From: Desulfobacteraceae bacterium
GTDB lineage: Bacteria > Desulfobacterota > Desulfobacteria > Desulfobacterales > JAABSP01
NCBI GenBank assembly: GCA_011390065.1
Contig: JAABTD010000024.1
Span: 1 to 34,237, forward strand
Direction: 5' to 3'
Length of the DNA: 34,237 nucleotides
Positions 3,132 through 10,073 of this stretch are shown here, piece after piece; positions within the stretch are counted from its first letter, which is position 1; each line of letters opens with the position of its first letter. The notes under the pieces are model-generated. The model ran no database searches. It worked only from the letters and a program-made list of their open reading frames with translations, and was not told the DNA's origin. The position numbers were made by a program, and so were the translations under genes.

Positions 3132-3362
3132 GGCAGCCGGACAATTTTTTATTAAAATGAAAAATTTTCTGTAAACCATATCGGAGTTCAGGCGTCTGAA
3201 GGTTTAAAAAGCGGAAATGATTGTCAAATGAGAATTACGCCCCAATGTACTTCCATAATACTTTAGTATCGTTGTCTAAGGGTGTACGCGGCTGCGGATC
3301 AGGAAGACCGAGAAGGAAAGCGATTGCTGAACAAAGCGGGACACATAAACGAGAGATGCCCT

Positions 3363-3998
3363 ATGGAGCGCGCATCCTCGTGTTCGAATGACGGTCGTGA
3401 TGGAACAGTCGATGACCATGCGCTGGCGGAAAGGGCCGGAAATGACGACAGGGGGGCGGCCGACGAACTGGTCTATCGGTATTACCCGAAGGTGTACCGC
3501 CTGGTCCACCGGATGTCGGGCGGCGATGCGGACGCCGCGGAAGAGAGGACTCAGGACATCTTTTTGAAAATTTTCGAACGCATTGAAGGGTTTCGACAGG
3601 AAGCCGCCTTTTCCACCTGGATTTATCGGATCGCCGTCAATGCTTGCCTGGATGACCGAAGGCGGCGCAGAAGGTGGATGAAGTTGTTAACGCCCTGGCC
3701 CTTCGGCCGAAGACGAGCCGCTGATTCCGAAAATGCGGAAGAACCGCCCGACACCCGGCCGCTTGCCGATCCCGAGGAGGTGTTGAGAGGACGTCAGCTC
3801 GACGGTGCGGTTCGAGCCGCCATGGCTGCCTTGACCGACAAACAGCGGATGGTGTTCCACCTCAAAGTGTTCGAGGGATTCCGGATCTCCGAGATCGCGG
3901 CCATTATGGAAATGGCGGAAGGCACGGTTAAAAGTCATCTGTTTCGCGCAACCCACGCGCTTAGAGAGCGTTTGAACGATTGGATCGACAAGGAGTGA
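3363..3998 (+). CDS. ECF (group IV) RNA polymerase sigma factor, RpoE-like
   Basis: The protein has 211 residues from the chosen ATG. Region 2 is clear: a helix with YYPKVYRLVHRM, then QDIFLKIFERI, and FSTWIYRIAVNACLD as the -10 recognition/melting segment. A charged linker rich in Arg, Glu and Asp follows. Region 4 contains LTDKQRMVFHLKVFEG and the helix-turn-helix ISEIAAIMEMAEGTVKSHLFRA, which would read the -35 element. A longer frame opens at a GTG at 3282, but it lacks a well-placed ribosome-binding site and adds residues unlike sigma factors; the ATG at 3363 has GAGAG upstream and starts near the usual length. The next gene, four bases after the stop, is its likely anti-sigma factor. 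That pairing is the standard layout for membrane-signal-responsive ECF systems. Confidence 0.93.
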   Translation: MERASSCSNDGRDGTVDDHALAERAGNDDRGAADELVYRYYPKVYRLVHRMSGGDADAAEERTQDIFLKIFERIEGFRQEAAFSTWIYRIAVNACLDDRRRRRRWMKLLTPWPFGRRRAADSENAEEPPDTRPLADPEEVLRGRQLDGAVRAAMAALTDKQRMVFHLKVFEGFRISEIAAIMEMAEGTVKSHLFRATHALRERLNDWIDKE

Positions 3999-4002
3999 TG
4001 TC

Positions 4003-4566
4003 ATGAACAACTGTCGGAATTGCCAGGAGATCCTATGGATGGAGCTGTATGGGGAATTGAGCCCGATGGAGCGTTCCGAATGGAAACGGCATCTGGAGGT
4101 CTGCGACGCCTGCCGCAGAGAAAAAGCCGGAACCGGCCGGATGTTGGAACGGATCCAGGTTTCAATGCCGGCCCCGGCGATCCCTCCGGACGGGGCCGAA
4201 CGGGTCGTCCAACGGCTGCGCCATGGGCGGCGTCCCGCGAAAAGGCAGCGTCCGGAGGGGATGATCGGTCAAAAATGGGCTCTGGCGGGGGCGTTATGCC
4301 TTATTCTGATCGCCGCAGCGGCGCTCTCCATACTCCGGTTCGCCCCCTTTGACGCTCCCGATCCGAGCGTCGGCAATCCACTGAAGGCGGCGGCGATATT
4401 GAATGAGGAGGAAGTCGAAGTGATCCAGCATCTGGACCTGTTGCAGGAGATGGACGCCCTCCAGAAGCTGGTGCAACGGATCGACCGATCCGAAACGGAC
4501 GTTTTGCCCATAAAAGACGCCACGGACGAGCTGAGGAGCGACGCCGATGATGACGCCCTTGTTTAA
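4003..4566 (+). CDS. Membrane-anchored zinc-binding anti-sigma factor (ZAS / zf-HC2 type)
   Basis: The 187-residue protein starts with a cytoplasmic anti-sigma zinc-finger domain: Cys4, Cys7 and then His30-x3-Cys34-x2-Cys37, the hallmark H-x3-C-x2-C of ZAS proteins. After an Arg-rich linker there is one membrane helix at about residues 92-113, followed by an acidic tail of roughly 70 residues outside the membrane. Proteins of this kind hold the partner ECF sigma factor inactive until an envelope signal releases it. The gene begins four bases after the sigma factor stop, with an AAGGAG ribosome-binding site inside the end of the sigma gene, so the two are translationally linked. The extra N-terminal cysteine beyond the usual one could allow redox sensing, but that is speculation. 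Its 3' end overlaps the next gene by 20 bases. Confidence 0.88.
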   Translation: MNNCRNCQEILWMELYGELSPMERSEWKRHLEVCDACRREKAGTGRMLERIQVSMPAPAIPPDGAERVVQRLRHGRRPAKRQRPEGMIGQKWALAGALCLILIAAAALSILRFAPFDAPDPSVGNPLKAAAILNEEEVEVIQHLDLLQEMDALQKLVQRIDRSETDVLPIKDATDELRSDADDDALV

Positions 4567-5026
4567 AGACCGGAGAATTTGGCGGGCGGCGGCGGCGGTG
4601 TTTCTGATGTCGGCGGCGATCGGTATGGCCGCCCGGTCGTCCGGAGCGACGGTCGATGCGCCGAGACATTTGGTGAAGACTTTCCATGACTGCGAAAGTC
4701 TTGAAACCATCCGGCACGCCGTCGCCGCCAACGACTCGGGAAGACAATGGCGAACCCTGTCGCCCCAGGAGCAGAAACAGCGCCTCAAGGAGTGGCAGTC
4801 GCTGTCGCCGAAGCAGCGGCGGAATCTGCGCGATCGCATGGACCGGTTGAAGCAGATGTCTGACGCGGATCGGCAATTGTATGAGCGCCGATTCCGGCAG
4901 TGGAAACAGTTGCCCCGGGAGGAACGTCGGCAGTTGCTTCAGAAATTCGATCGATGGGAGTCGTTGTCCCCGGAGGAGCGGGATGAAATTCGAAAATGGT
5001 TCCGGGATGATCAGCCAAACAGATAA
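4547..5026 (+). CDS. Exported or membrane-anchored DUF3106-like repeat protein
   Basis: The 159-residue product begins inside the end of the anti-sigma gene (ATG ATG at 4547/4550, GAGGAG upstream). A short basic start and a hydrophobic stretch at about residues 11-33 act as signal peptide or anchor. The rest is made of degenerate helical repeats with the pattern W..LSP.(E/Q)(R/Q)..L, for example WRTLSPQEQ, WQSLSPKQR, WKQLPREER and WESLSPEER. This is how DUF3106 family proteins look; their function is unknown. The segment is very rich in Arg, Gln and Glu and likely forms an all-helical periplasmic domain. The overlap with the sigma/anti-sigma pair suggests that it takes part in sensing or is a direct regulon member. 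A relationship to periplasmic metal- or stress-sensing helical repressors is possible but not shown. Confidence 0.75.
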   Translation: MMTPLFKDRRIWRAAAAVFLMSAAIGMAARSSGATVDAPRHLVKTFHDCESLETIRHAVAANDSGRQWRTLSPQEQKQRLKEWQSLSPKQRRNLRDRMDRLKQMSDADRQLYERRFRQWKQLPREERRQLLQKFDRWESLSPEERDEIRKWFRDDQPNR

Positions 5027-5964: not shown

Positions 5965-6055
5965 TCGTCGGGAAGTCAAAGACCAGTTGACTCCAAACAG
6001 CGTTTCCCGGTATGTATGCGCAGTTCCTTTTCAATGCTGCTGCCGGAGAAAAGCG

Positions 6056-7096
6056 ATGCACGAAAATTACCCGAACGGGGAGCGCCCTGGCCCTCTCATC
6101 CTGATTGCAGAAGACGATCCCCTGCGCCTTCAATCCCTGGGCAACATCCTGAAACGGGGGACATACGCCTTTATCACGGCGATGAACGGCCGCAGAACCG
6201 TCGAAAAACTCACGGAGCGGAACCCCGATGTTCTCCTTATCAGCGGGGAACTGGACGGGACCGAAGATCCCGACGTGCGCCATCGAATTACATCCCTGTG
6301 CGAAACCCAGGGGACAGCCATGCTGGTGGTGAAGCGGACCGTCCCCGCGGGGGATTTTTTACACCGGTATTCCGGGGAGGCCATCGATATCATATCGGAA
6401 CCGGTGGATCCATCGGACCTGTTAAGGCGCCTGTCTCTCCATTTGAGCGTTCGGACCCTCCGGAGAGAACTGGCTGAATCCAGGGAACAGCTGGATCTGG
6501 AAACCGAATCCCGCTTGAATCTCATCCGGGAGAATGCGGCCCTTCGAAAGGAGGTCAATCGCAAGGAAGAGACGATCCGGAAAATGCGGGTGACCGATCC
6601 CCTCACCGGGCTTTACAATTACCGATACATCATGGATCATCTCTCCAGAAAGATCGCCGAATCCCGCAGGTACGACGCGCCGCTGTCCATTGTGATCCTG
6701 TGCATCGATCATTTCAAGGGGATCAACGCCCATCACGGTATTGAGATGGGCGATGACATTCTGGTGAGCGCGGCCGGGGTCATCAAGGAACTGTTGCGGG
6801 ATTCGGATATCATCTCGCGGTACAGCGGGGATGAATTTCTGATCCTTCTCCCTCATACCGATGTGGAGGGGGCCTATCGGACGGCGGAGCGGATCCGCTG
6901 CAGCATCGAGTCGTTGTCCTGGGACGACCCCTTGAATCTCGTGACGATCAGCGGCGGCGTCACGGCGCTTTCCGGCCAGAGCGACGTCGATCCGCAGGAA
7001 AAGTCCGGACATCTTCTTTACCGTCTGATCATGTACGCCGACAGCCTCCTCTTCAAGGCGAAGACGGGGGGCGGCAATCGGATCGAAAAAGAATGA
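6056..7096 (+). CDS. Diguanylate cyclase with degenerate N-terminal receiver domain
   Basis: The 346-residue protein starts at the ATG at 6056, preceded by GGAG at normal spacing; an upstream in-frame start at 5987 adds a Cys-rich stretch unlike the family. Residues 13-135 fold like a response-regulator receiver: the acidic pair Asp20/Asp21 is kept, but the phosphoacceptor position after PDVLLI is Ser63, and the Lys normally found before Pro is Glu115. A helical linker at about 140-185 is heptad-like. The GGDEF domain follows, with TDPLTGLYNYRY, IDHFKGIN and the active-site loop Ser257-Gly-Asp-Glu-Phe261. An RxxD inhibitory site (Arg248 to Asp251) sits five residues before it. It should therefore make cyclic di-GMP with product feedback, while phosphorylation control looks lost. 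The input to the pseudo-receiver is unknown. Confidence 0.9.
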   Translation: MHENYPNGERPGPLILIAEDDPLRLQSLGNILKRGTYAFITAMNGRRTVEKLTERNPDVLLISGELDGTEDPDVRHRITSLCETQGTAMLVVKRTVPAGDFLHRYSGEAIDIISEPVDPSDLLRRLSLHLSVRTLRRELAESREQLDLETESRLNLIRENAALRKEVNRKEETIRKMRVTDPLTGLYNYRYIMDHLSRKIAESRRYDAPLSIVILCIDHFKGINAHHGIEMGDDILVSAAGVIKELLRDSDIISRYSGDEFLILLPHTDVEGAYRTAERIRCSIESLSWDDPLNLVTISGGVTALSGQSDVDPQEKSGHLLYRLIMYADSLLFKAKTGGGNRIEKE

Positions 7097-7115
7097 AAAA
7101 TACAAGGAGATGGAT

Positions 7116-7907
7116 ATGGAAGAAGATCAGGCGGCGTTTGCGGCCGAAGGAGACGACATCATCGATCGGGCCGCGCCGATACAGACGACGCTGAAATGGA
7201 CCTCCCGCGAGGATCTTGATCTGTACTGCTTCTATGTAACGGTGGATGATAAAACCGGCAAAGTGTACCATAACCATATGGGAGATCTCAAAACGCCGCC
7301 CCATATCTATCTGGACCGGGACAGCCGGAAAAAGGGGACCGAGACCGTGACCATCGCCGATCCGAACGCCCTCAAATACGTGCTGGCGGCGGCCTATCGA
7401 GAGTTTGAAAGCGGCGCGGGAAGCTTCGCATCCTCAGAGGCGCGAGCGGTCATTTCCAATGCCAAGGGCCAGACGGTGGAGATCTGCCTGCAGCAAAAAA
7501 ATGAATATGCCTATTGGGTGGCCCTGGCGCTTATCGATTTCACCGATCCCATGGGCGTTCGCATCTCAAAGTCCGAGACCTATGCGGAGGCGGATGTTGA
7601 ACAGGCCCCCGTATTGAACACAGACGGCACATTCAAAATGGGGGCCGGCGCTGTGGAGTTTAAAGGGACGACAAAAAAATGTTTTGTGGCGACGGGCGTT
7701 TACGGGGCCTGGGACGCTCCGGAGGTCAGGACACTGAGAGGCTTCCGGGATCGATATTTGCGTGGAACGGTTTTTGGCGAAGCGTTTCTTCGTCTCTATT
7801 ACCGGTGGTCGCCCCCCATGGCGGCAGCTGTTTCCCAGCGGCCGTTGCTGAAAAAATGGGTGAAAGACCGGCTTCTTGACCCGCTGGTCCGGCATATCGG
7901 CCGATAG
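7116..7907 (+). CDS. TerD-like domain protein with C-terminal CFI-box domain
   Basis: The 263-residue protein is read from the ATG at 7116, which has AAGGAG six bases upstream; the ATG at 7110 abuts that site and is less likely. Residues about 20-155 resemble the TerD/tellurium-resistance fold: LKWTSREDLDLYCFYV, HIYLDRDS, a conserved acidic pattern, and YWVALALIDFTDP. TerD domains bind calcium and occur in stress-response membrane complexes. From Cys189 the sequence reads CFVATGVYG, then APEV..LR.FRDRYLR, YYRWSPP, which matches the CFI-box C-terminal domain found at the ends of otherwise unrelated bacterial proteins; its role is not known to me. No signal peptide is visible. It sits 19 bases after the diguanylate cyclase gene and 6 bases before a large membrane protein gene, suggesting one transcript. 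Confidence 0.75.
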   Translation: MEEDQAAFAAEGDDIIDRAAPIQTTLKWTSREDLDLYCFYVTVDDKTGKVYHNHMGDLKTPPHIYLDRDSRKKGTETVTIADPNALKYVLAAAYREFESGAGSFASSEARAVISNAKGQTVEICLQQKNEYAYWVALALIDFTDPMGVRISKSETYAEADVEQAPVLNTDGTFKMGAGAVEFKGTTKKCFVATGVYGAWDAPEVRTLRGFRDRYLRGTVFGEAFLRLYYRWSPPMAAAVSQRPLLKKWVKDRLLDPLVRHIGR

Positions 7908-7913
7908 CGGGAT

Positions 7914-10073
7914 ATGAGGCCGGCTTGGCGGACCGCGTTGTCTCTGGCGCTCATCGGCATTGGAACGGCGTCGATGCTGTGGACCGCATACGCTGCAGCT
8001 GAGATCCTGGGCAATCGTCGATGGGTCCTCTACGGCGGCGGCATCCTCATCCTGGCCGGTGCTGGGGTGTTGTCATGGTCTCGACGCTGCCGGACACAGG
8101 AGATTGAGGCGCGTCGGACAGGCCTCGGCAGGATGGAAACCGCCTTGCAGGAACGCGCCGAACGGATCGGCAGACGGCAGCGGGAACTGGCCCGGCAGCT
8201 GATGCAGCTCCATGAATGGACCGAATTTCCGGGGGGCGATCTGATCCGGCCGGCATCAGATGACCATCTGCCGGTGGCCGAAGATCTCGGCGAGAAAGAC
8301 AGAGCGGTAGCGGCGCTTCTGGAAAAGCGGACCGAGATCCTGTTTGAAAAAATCAAAAACAATGCTTATCAGACGGGCGGCGTCTTCCAGAAAGAGCGTC
8401 TGGTCGAGGATTTGATTGGATTGGTCGAGGATGTGGCCCGCATCTACAACCCCGGCTCCAAGCGGCCCTTGCTGGAAACCAGCGTCGAAAGGCTCCTTCG
8501 CGCCGCCAATCGGATCTCCCTCCAACTCCTGCTTCTTCTTGAAGGGCTTCCCCTGGATATCAAATCCTATAACCTCCAGACCACCTATGAAACGATCCGG
8601 AAAGGCATCCGGGCGTATGGGGTTTATAAATCCGCAGAACCCTATCTTTCCTATGCGAGACCCTTTTATTATATGGGCCGCTATGCCTTGGGCGCCGCGC
8701 CGGTGGTCCTGGGCGCGGGATGGGCCGTGAGCCAAATGGTCAAAAGCGGGGCGCGACGGTTTTCAACTTCAATGGCCAATCGATATGCCCTCGGTCTGTT
8801 GGGGGACATGGTGCGGATCATCGGCGGGGAGGCCGCCGGGGTGTTTGGCGGCGATTACCGTCACCGGGACCCCAATTGGATCTATGGCGCGGAGTTGACG
8901 GATCTGGTCGCGGCCTGTGCTTTATCGCCGGACATCCATCGTTTTGCCATTGAAGAGATCAGCGGGCTGGCGCTGCGGAACGAATACGACCGGATTTTTC
9001 TCTATCGCTGCCTTGCCTCCGGGACCAGCGCCGGTCCGAACCGGTTCGCCGACCCTGCGAGCCTGCCCATGGATCAGCGGGAGACCGTCGCCAAACGGCT
9101 GGAGCGCTTCCACAAGCGGTGCCTCCGGGGCATATCCGATGAATCGGGGGGCCTGGCGAAATGGCGGCGCGATGCCGAGGGTCGTCTGGGCGTCAAGATC
9201 CGGTTGGCGGAAAAGGACCTCCCGGCCCCGCCGTCGGAAGAGAAGACCGCCACCGGCGTTTTCTCCCTTGCCGGTTTTCTGTTGGAGGTCAAGGGGCGTG
9301 ATCCCGAAGAAACGCCGGCAATGTTGTCCGGGACCCGGATGTTCGAGTCCCTCGGCGCGGTCGAAAGAGATACCCTTCTGAAAGCGCTTCTGGCGGCGCC
9401 CCCCATGGTCTTTGAGTATCCAGAAATGGAGACCGGGGATCGGCATGTGGCGGATTTTTTATCCGACCTGATATCCTTGACGGTCAAAATCCATCCCCGC
9501 AACGAGGAGATGGACGCCGTGGTCGCGGATGCGGCCCGGCATTTCCGAAAAAAAGATCTGGTCGCCGTAAAAAAGCGGCTGGACCGGGAATATGTCGATT
9601 TTCTGTCGGCCTCCCTGCGGGAGGATTCTCCGGAAAAGCGGATCTCCCCTCAAGTGGCCCGTTCGCTTCTCTATATGCTGATGGAGGATGAATCTCCCCG
9701 ATTTCTTTACAGGTCCATCCACCTCAGAACAGAAGAGGGGAGCGGAAAATCGGTTCCCTTTCCTCCCTATGCCGAGCCATGGCTGATGGGAACGGATCGA
9801 CGGCTGGTGCTGGCGGCGGTCAATCGCAGGTTTCAGAGCCCGCCCATTCTTGTCTGGAGCGTCCAAAAATCAAGGGATGGGTCTGAAACCGCGACGGTGT
9901 CTCGCTTGGAGGGGCGATTCCGCGACGCCTGTCGGTTGATGGGGGGGGGGTGGCATTGGGACCGGTTGGAAGCGACGGCGTCTCATCCTGCCATTCTGAT
10001 ATCCGGCGCGGCCATGGGTCGGTACAAACGGTTTTTCCGACCGCTTATCGAGTTTTTCGGGGCGACGGACTGA
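7914..10073 (+). CDS. Large membrane-anchored protein of unknown function (719 residues)
   Basis: I do not recognise this family. Two hydrophobic helices at about residues 8-30 and 37-55 form an N-terminal hairpin anchor, followed by a charged, probably coiled-coil stretch at 60-105. Further hydrophobic segments lie near 200-215 (SLQLLLLLEG) and 250-280 (Gly/Ala-rich, ending AVSQMV). Around 160-240 there is a well-ordered helical block with IYNPGSKRPLLETSVERLL and SYNLQTTYETIRKG. The C-terminal half is soluble-looking, mixed helix and strand, with no Walker, kinase or nuclease motif that I can see. It begins six bases after the TerD/CFI-box gene and probably functions with it. Codon 677 onward contains an uninterrupted run of ten G, so replication slippage would change the last 40 residues. 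The helical block vaguely recalls accessory regions of bacterial dynamin- or Era-like GTPase partners, but no GTPase is present. Confidence 0.7.
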   Translation: MRPAWRTALSLALIGIGTASMLWTAYAAAEILGNRRWVLYGGGILILAGAGVLSWSRRCRTQEIEARRTGLGRMETALQERAERIGRRQRELARQLMQLHEWTEFPGGDLIRPASDDHLPVAEDLGEKDRAVAALLEKRTEILFEKIKNNAYQTGGVFQKERLVEDLIGLVEDVARIYNPGSKRPLLETSVERLLRAANRISLQLLLLLEGLPLDIKSYNLQTTYETIRKGIRAYGVYKSAEPYLSYARPFYYMGRYALGAAPVVLGAGWAVSQMVKSGARRFSTSMANRYALGLLGDMVRIIGGEAAGVFGGDYRHRDPNWIYGAELTDLVAACALSPDIHRFAIEEISGLALRNEYDRIFLYRCLASGTSAGPNRFADPASLPMDQRETVAKRLERFHKRCLRGISDESGGLAKWRRDAEGRLGVKIRLAEKDLPAPPSEEKTATGVFSLAGFLLEVKGRDPEETPAMLSGTRMFESLGAVERDTLLKALLAAPPMVFEYPEMETGDRHVADFLSDLISLTVKIHPRNEEMDAVVADAARHFRKKDLVAVKKRLDREYVDFLSASLREDSPEKRISPQVARSLLYMLMEDESPRFLYRSIHLRTEEGSGKSVPFPPYAEPWLMGTDRRLVLAAVNRRFQSPPILVWSVQKSRDGSETATVSRLEGRFRDACRLMGGGWHWDRLEATASHPAILISGAAMGRYKRFFRPLIEFFGATD
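9941..9950. repeat. G10 homopolymer tract inside a coding frame
   Basis: Ten consecutive G residues fall within the 719-residue protein gene, completing a Met codon and encoding three glycines before Trp680. This is the longest G run noticed in the window. Tracts of this length are slippage-prone in other bacteria and are a common basis for phase variation; they are also a common site of sequencing error. Confidence 0.9.

Follow-up and report, generated by a model that had tools for sequence, protein, structure and literature searches.

Ter systems are found widely, how they work is debated, and the membrane partners with which TerD proteins act are an open question. The portions of a 2021 jumbo phage paper on which we draw describe them as combining TerD ligand-binding parts with sub-membrane parts and link them to exclusion (PMC7824862); our view of Ter systems is based on these portions and on parts of a further paper (PMC7159879). 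Here we report on a window of 34,237 nucleotides from a Desulfobacteraceae bacterium of the order Desulfobacterales (assembly GCA_011390065.1, contig JAABTD010000024.1), "window" denoting this whole stretch. Three genes follow each other closely on its plus strand and encode a protein with receiver and GGDEF domains (REC-GGDEF), a fusion of a TerD-like domain with a CFI-box domain (TerD-CFI) and a 719-residue membrane-anchored protein of an unnamed family. The three genes are a real, lineage-specific operon, and TerD-CFI and the membrane protein are not an obligatory pair. We propose, with a probability of about 0.45, that this short family-specific operon encodes a membrane stress module at the cytoplasmic face, a Ter-like variant whose mechanism we infer from its domain make-up.

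The REC-GGDEF gene (6056..7096, its start set by alignment with the same-genus genome G001) is followed after 19 bases by the TerD-CFI gene (7116..7907), which is separated by six bases from the membrane gene (7914..10073). A sequence-only reading of the window had described the latter two reading frames and the short gap between them at the same places. TerD-CFI has a first ATG at 7110 (265 residues); we prefer the ATG at 7116 (263 residues) because the Shine-Dalgarno sequence AAGGAG (7104..7109) touches the earlier ATG, and because in the other three family genomes (G001, G002 and G003) the corresponding ATG likewise lies behind a similar AAGGAG at the matching place. Between TerD-CFI and the membrane gene no promoter-like or terminator-like site was seen. 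The two are conserved across genomes, with 78% identity to G001 for TerD-CFI and 67% for the membrane protein, and are therefore real genes.

The order REC-GGDEF, TerD-CFI, membrane gene is kept in G000, G001 and G002, three of the four family genomes, with other flanking genes in G002, as a unit would show. Between G000 and G002 the membrane protein has just about 40% identity, and the three family copies form one clade. Homologues of the membrane protein were found in 8 of 146 relatives within the order, the window's genome counted, and in four further metagenome-assembled genomes (one Desulfobacteraceae, one Verrucomicrobiales, two Planctomycetota). In a sample of the phylum the profile of the membrane family (A1) matched 27 of 395 genomes, two of them over most or a large part of the protein; the remaining matches are partial, mostly confined to the core, and lead to a family of shorter anchored proteins (A4), with G367 matched at positions 53-120 only. 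A sample of Planctomycetota contained the full-length membrane gene in 1 of 294 genomes, the one at the centre of the sample. No relatives of the membrane protein were found in viral contigs, and plasmids gave no match.

Regarding co-occurrence within the order, the TerD-like alignment A3 matched 21 of the 146 relatives (one marginally), and every one of the 8 membrane-gene genomes was among them (p = 5e-8). As two rows of A3 come from the family, we ran the test again with the fusion genes left out of the count; TerD-like genes were then present in 6 of 8 membrane-gene genomes against 18 of 146 (p = 4e-5). Outside the family all five membrane-gene genomes carry TerD-like genes, against 17 of 142 (p = 1.4e-5); two of these five copies are split or truncated, and with intact membrane genes only the comparison is 3/3 against 17/142 (p = 0.0015). 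Counted by family it becomes 3/3 against 11/72 (p = 0.003, the 72 being inferred from handle labels), and for genomes outside the window's family of at least 4.4 Mb, among the 96 with listed sizes, 4/4 against 11/40 (p = 0.004). We regard the Ter link of the membrane family as suggestive, not general.

The fusion protein contains both domains that the sequence-only reading had recognized. Its TerD-like domain (7179..7574, residues 24-155 when numbered from the ATG at 7110; limits from the match range, hhalign and phrog_22042) is about 36-48% identical to relatives of the TerD family, including proteins of plasmids and phages (about 36-47%), several of them with a TerD family annotation, and phrog_22042 matches residues 34-185 (E = 2.5e-26). 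An hhalign alignment of the four family sequences against nine TerD-like paralogues from the order gave E = 1.8e-18. This comparison is a repeat with separate sequence sets; an earlier value of E = 1e-61 for the TerD subtype against the order's TerD-like set was discarded, as the second alignment contained rows from the window's family. Towards canonical TerD the profile matches are weaker, with E = 5e-5 and a probability of 67 for the domain, and E = 0.004 and a probability of 8 for the order's TerD-like set. The Pfam model of TerD (PF02342) gave no match above cut-off in the window protein or in the window's genome, while one of the nine paralogues reached 24.2 bits, just below the cut-off of 25.3. 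Given this weak bridge and the paralogue just under the cut-off, the first domain is, judged by its sequence, fairly called "TerD-like" and not "TerD". The same subtype stands behind a canonical PF02342 domain within one chain in three plasmid proteins, one of which has a vWA-TerF-like domain in between. In the whole subtype the longer acidic loop of canonical TerD, which binds calcium, is shortened (alignments A3 and A10). Sequence searches of the PDB with the fusion protein, the TerD-like subtype and the order's TerD-like set yielded nothing convincing; canonical TerD as query finds 2kxt and 3ibz. The viral contig collections contained no relative of the fusion protein. Our literature search found no mention of "CFI-box" or of its motif string and no text with TerD and CFI-box together.

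Genes of this subtype and of the order's set occur in several further surroundings. On a Streptomyces plasmid (L058) a TerD-family gene of the subtype follows a CHAT-domain gene, with an SPFH-domain gene three genes on, and phage LilMartin (L060) has a band-7-like gene close to its TerD gene. In four genomes of the order (L104, L106, L107 and L108) the TerD-like cluster neighbours genes from two further clusters, represented by a T2SSF-type (PilC-like) gene and a PilS-like kinase gene (members checked in L106), and an M48-peptidase-type gene stands among the TerD-like genes in L104, L106 and L108 (checked in L106).

The second domain of the fusion protein (7680..7874, residues 191-255) matches CFI-box-CTERM (NF041770) with 73.8 bits over 65 of the 69 profile positions, the cut-off being 40 bits. 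We looked for the CFI-box at 17 loci and could read it in 16. In 14 of these 16, judged by eye, the box is followed by a hydrophobic stretch and basic residues, a tail that by its appearance resembles a C-terminal sorting signal, and in two it is not. The box in the window has no glycine-rich linker and ends without the hydrophobic and basic tail, and no signal peptide was seen by eye in the fusion protein.

The 719-residue protein has no match in Pfam, NCBIfam, PHROG or PADLOC, and PDB sequence searches with the membrane family and with its second helical block gave nothing convincing. Hydropathy peaks at residues 11-29 and 38-56 (7944..8081) bear out the double anchor that had been read from the sequence; somewhat weaker peaks at residues 258-276 and 293-311 may mean additional contact with the membrane. 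Both clear hydrophobic segments are N-terminal and a basic stretch follows the second, which suggests that the rest of the protein, about 660 residues, is cytoplasmic. A ten-sequence alignment of the family has a mean column identity of 47%. Behind the anchor lies a conserved helical core (8274..9140, residues 121-409), which aligns with the shorter anchored proteins (hhalign A1 versus A4, probability 98.5, E = 1.9e-15); this shorter family has itself no Pfam or NCBIfam match near cut-off. In 3 of 11 neighbourhoods viewed, the A4 proteins directly adjoin a gene from the cluster of an RdgC-like protein (L095, L097 and L100; the member checked, from L095, matches RdgC). TerB had appeared plausible by eye for the helical blocks but is not supported, as hhalign against two TerB sequences, a small query set, gave E values of 0.34 and 0.62 with probabilities below 1; a remote kinship may still exist.

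The full-length structure model of the membrane protein has a mean predicted local distance difference test score (pLDDT) of 58 and a predicted template modelling score (pTM) of 0.36, and served as a lead for the C-terminus only, whereas the model of the C-terminal 280 residues reached a pLDDT of 87.5 and a pTM of 0.86. In this model a second helical block (9231..9674, residues 440-587), confidently modelled and unmatched in fold, is followed by a PH-like domain of about 130 residues (9675..10070, about residues 588-719), consisting of a beta barrel and a C-terminal helix. The best VIA match of the C-terminus has Z = 9.6 with a root-mean-square deviation of 3.1 A over 114 residues, all other rows having Z < 8, and these scores taken alone could reflect a common arrangement. 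We kept the PH-like assignment despite the modest VIA scores because nearly all of the matches listed are PH-fold chains, bacterial ones included, and the best Foldseek E value is 3e-5. The Pfam PH families gave no sequence match, and the viral structure library none at E <= 0.001, with E = 0.0025 for its top row, a bacterial PH domain protein. For the helical core and the second block no fold match was found among the matches listed, which are filled by PH rows; this does not argue for a new fold. The earlier statement that the membrane protein has no recognisable motif is thus upheld for its sequence and not for its modelled structure. What results is a first domain description of a conserved family that has no name in Pfam, NCBIfam, PHROGs or PADLOC.

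The first gene of the operon was assigned from matches to PF00990 (E = 3.5e-32) and PF00072 (E = 4.6e-7) on the frame 6035-7093, i.e. a GGDEF and a receiver domain. A REC-GGDEF gene precedes TerD-CFI in all four family genomes, the other three proteins being 76, 46 and 34% identical to that of the window. All four have the RxxD motif, which we take to be the I-site, and at the presumed active site they carry SGDEF, SGDEF, SGEEF and GGKTF, the window protein having SGDEF and the motif being degenerate in G002. At what we take to be the aspartate position of the receiver the window protein has serine and the other three have aspartate. Going by these motifs, binding of cyclic di-GMP (c-di-GMP) rather than its synthesis may be the retained role.

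In the stress module that we propose on the basis of gene order, homology, domain make-up and co-occurrence within the order, the helical core and the PH-like domain would form a platform on the inner membrane face, on which the TerD-like protein would dock via its CFI-box or its TerD domain. The TerD-like protein would answer a stress signal that may be a nucleotide, and REC-GGDEF would set or sense c-di-GMP locally, so that the whole would be a reduced Ter system with the membrane protein in place of the usual membrane partner. We also considered a c-di-GMP-linked branch of Ter stress systems, in which REC-GGDEF, whose I-site is kept even where the catalytic motif is lost, would signal to the TerD-CFI protein and this would switch a new family of PH-bearing inner-membrane platforms. 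In that case the membrane family would be a membrane component linked to Ter that has gone unrecognised in the order. We hold this more specific scheme to be unlikely. The literature matches for TerD, tellurium resistance and diguanylate cyclase combined appear unrelated.

Several findings weigh against the stress module. The sequence-only reading had suggested that TerD-CFI and the membrane protein may be a two-component envelope machine, and this is partly supported. It would have been refuted by genes never adjacent elsewhere or by membership of a well-characterised family; the three-gene order, however, recurs in G001 and G002, two other family genomes of which one belongs to another genus, and the membrane family is unnamed. 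The pairing is also backed by the co-occurrence in the order, but in 9 of the 11 other homologue genomes the membrane gene was not seen beside TerD or CFI-box genes. One of them (L002) has a TerD-like gene on the opposite strand, some 5 kb downstream, with sarcosine-oxidase-type genes in between, and in the others TerD is on another contig, far off or absent. The three homologues from Planctomycetota and Verrucomicrobiota are in genomes without a TerD match; in one genome without such a match (L004) the upstream side of the membrane gene is off the contig. In the fourth family genome, G003 (73% complete), TerD-CFI is followed by a repeat-rich frame up to the contig end (L123:1-200), and no membrane gene was found. 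In two genomes of the order TerD-like genes remain while the membrane gene is split between two frames (G118:C1:4494565-4496681) or, in a single-contig genome, truncated (G013:C1:2175063-2176379). The vWA-TerF-like marker shows no association with the membrane gene, being matched in 1 of 8 genomes and there below cut-off, and the p values given above assume independent genomes or families, an assumption that holds only in part, and ignore the tree within families. Part of this evidence speaks for an independent envelope protein that came to stand behind TerD-CFI in one family by chance during operon formation and is functionally unconnected with it: the nine unrelated contexts (neighbours include sarcosine-oxidase genes, CheW, cytidylate-kinase-like, methionine-synthase-like and peptidase S46 genes, among others), the three genomes without TerD, and the related smaller family beside RdgC-like or other genes. 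Such independence is a serious possibility, though one towards which we do not lean, because adjacency is kept in G000, G001 and G002 despite the low identity of the G000 and G002 proteins, the three copies are one clade with differing flanks, and the gene co-occurs with TerD-like genes in the order.

Two further explanations give the membrane protein another task. In a Ter-type membrane-stress or phage-exclusion device it would block the entry of foreign DNA or xenobiotics, in keeping with the exclusion role linked to Ter systems in the portions of PMC7824862 used here. TerD-like domains of the subtype do occur in Streptomyces phages, beside the CHAT-domain gene and near the SPFH-domain gene of the Streptomyces plasmid; on other plasmids they lie near DNA methylase genes. 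We nevertheless consider a device of this kind unlikely, as neither protein was matched in PADLOC, no vWA-TerF-like match was found in the window's family, and in both same-genus genomes the locus lies upstream of genes that we read as rng, yajC, secD and secF. Alternatively, the membrane protein could be processing or sorting machinery for CFI-box proteins, with TerD-CFI as its single substrate. Each of the four family genomes has a single CFI-box over cut-off, the one in the operon, and the tail of the usual boxes is sorting-signal-like; however, the box in the window lacks this tail on a protein without visible signal peptide, a search of the nine other genomes with the membrane gene gave no CFI-box over cut-off, and in the phylum sample the fusion-protein profile matches 100 of 395 genomes, mostly through the CFI-box, as against 2 of 395 with a full- or half-length membrane gene. 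A sorting role is accordingly very improbable. A tight operon with an unnamed PH-bearing membrane family and a c-di-GMP-type protein offers a small, testable case.

Further upstream in the window, the minus strand encodes a protein of 864 residues (325-2919) that shows a weak dockerin-like stretch alongside Ig-like and cadherin-like repeats, and positions 3282-5026 hold, in this order, genes for an ECF-type sigma factor, an anti-sigma-like zinc-finger protein (zf-HC2) and a DUF3106 protein.

Compared with described systems, the first protein is like a diguanylate cyclase with receiver, both domains being present and its cyclase activity putative, and differs from it in G002, where the motif is degenerate. 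Of the Ter partner genes TerC, TerB and TerF, none was recognised in the operon, the genome having been searched for TerD, vWA-TerF-like and CFI-box only. The CFI-box resembles CFI-box-CTERM in its nearly complete profile match and departs from it in lacking linker and tail and in sitting on a cytoplasmic-type domain. With bacterial PH-domain proteins (e.g. PDB 3hsa, 3dcx and 3b77), chains of which are among the matches, the C-terminal domain shares in the model the barrel followed by a C-terminal helix, but it has no Pfam PH sequence match and ends a large anchored protein. The unnamed A4 proteins of 230-370 residues from the same phylum likewise have an N-terminal hydrophobic segment and the helical core; they are without the PH-like domain, and some adjoin RdgC-like genes. 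Finally, although the window protein is unmatched by the Pfam model, has a shortened acidic loop and is fused to a CFI-box, its N-terminal domain is a divergent relative of the TerD family (PF02342; PDB 2kxt and 3ibz), whose closest subtype is found fused behind canonical TerD in the three plasmid proteins, one of them with the vWA-TerF-like domain.

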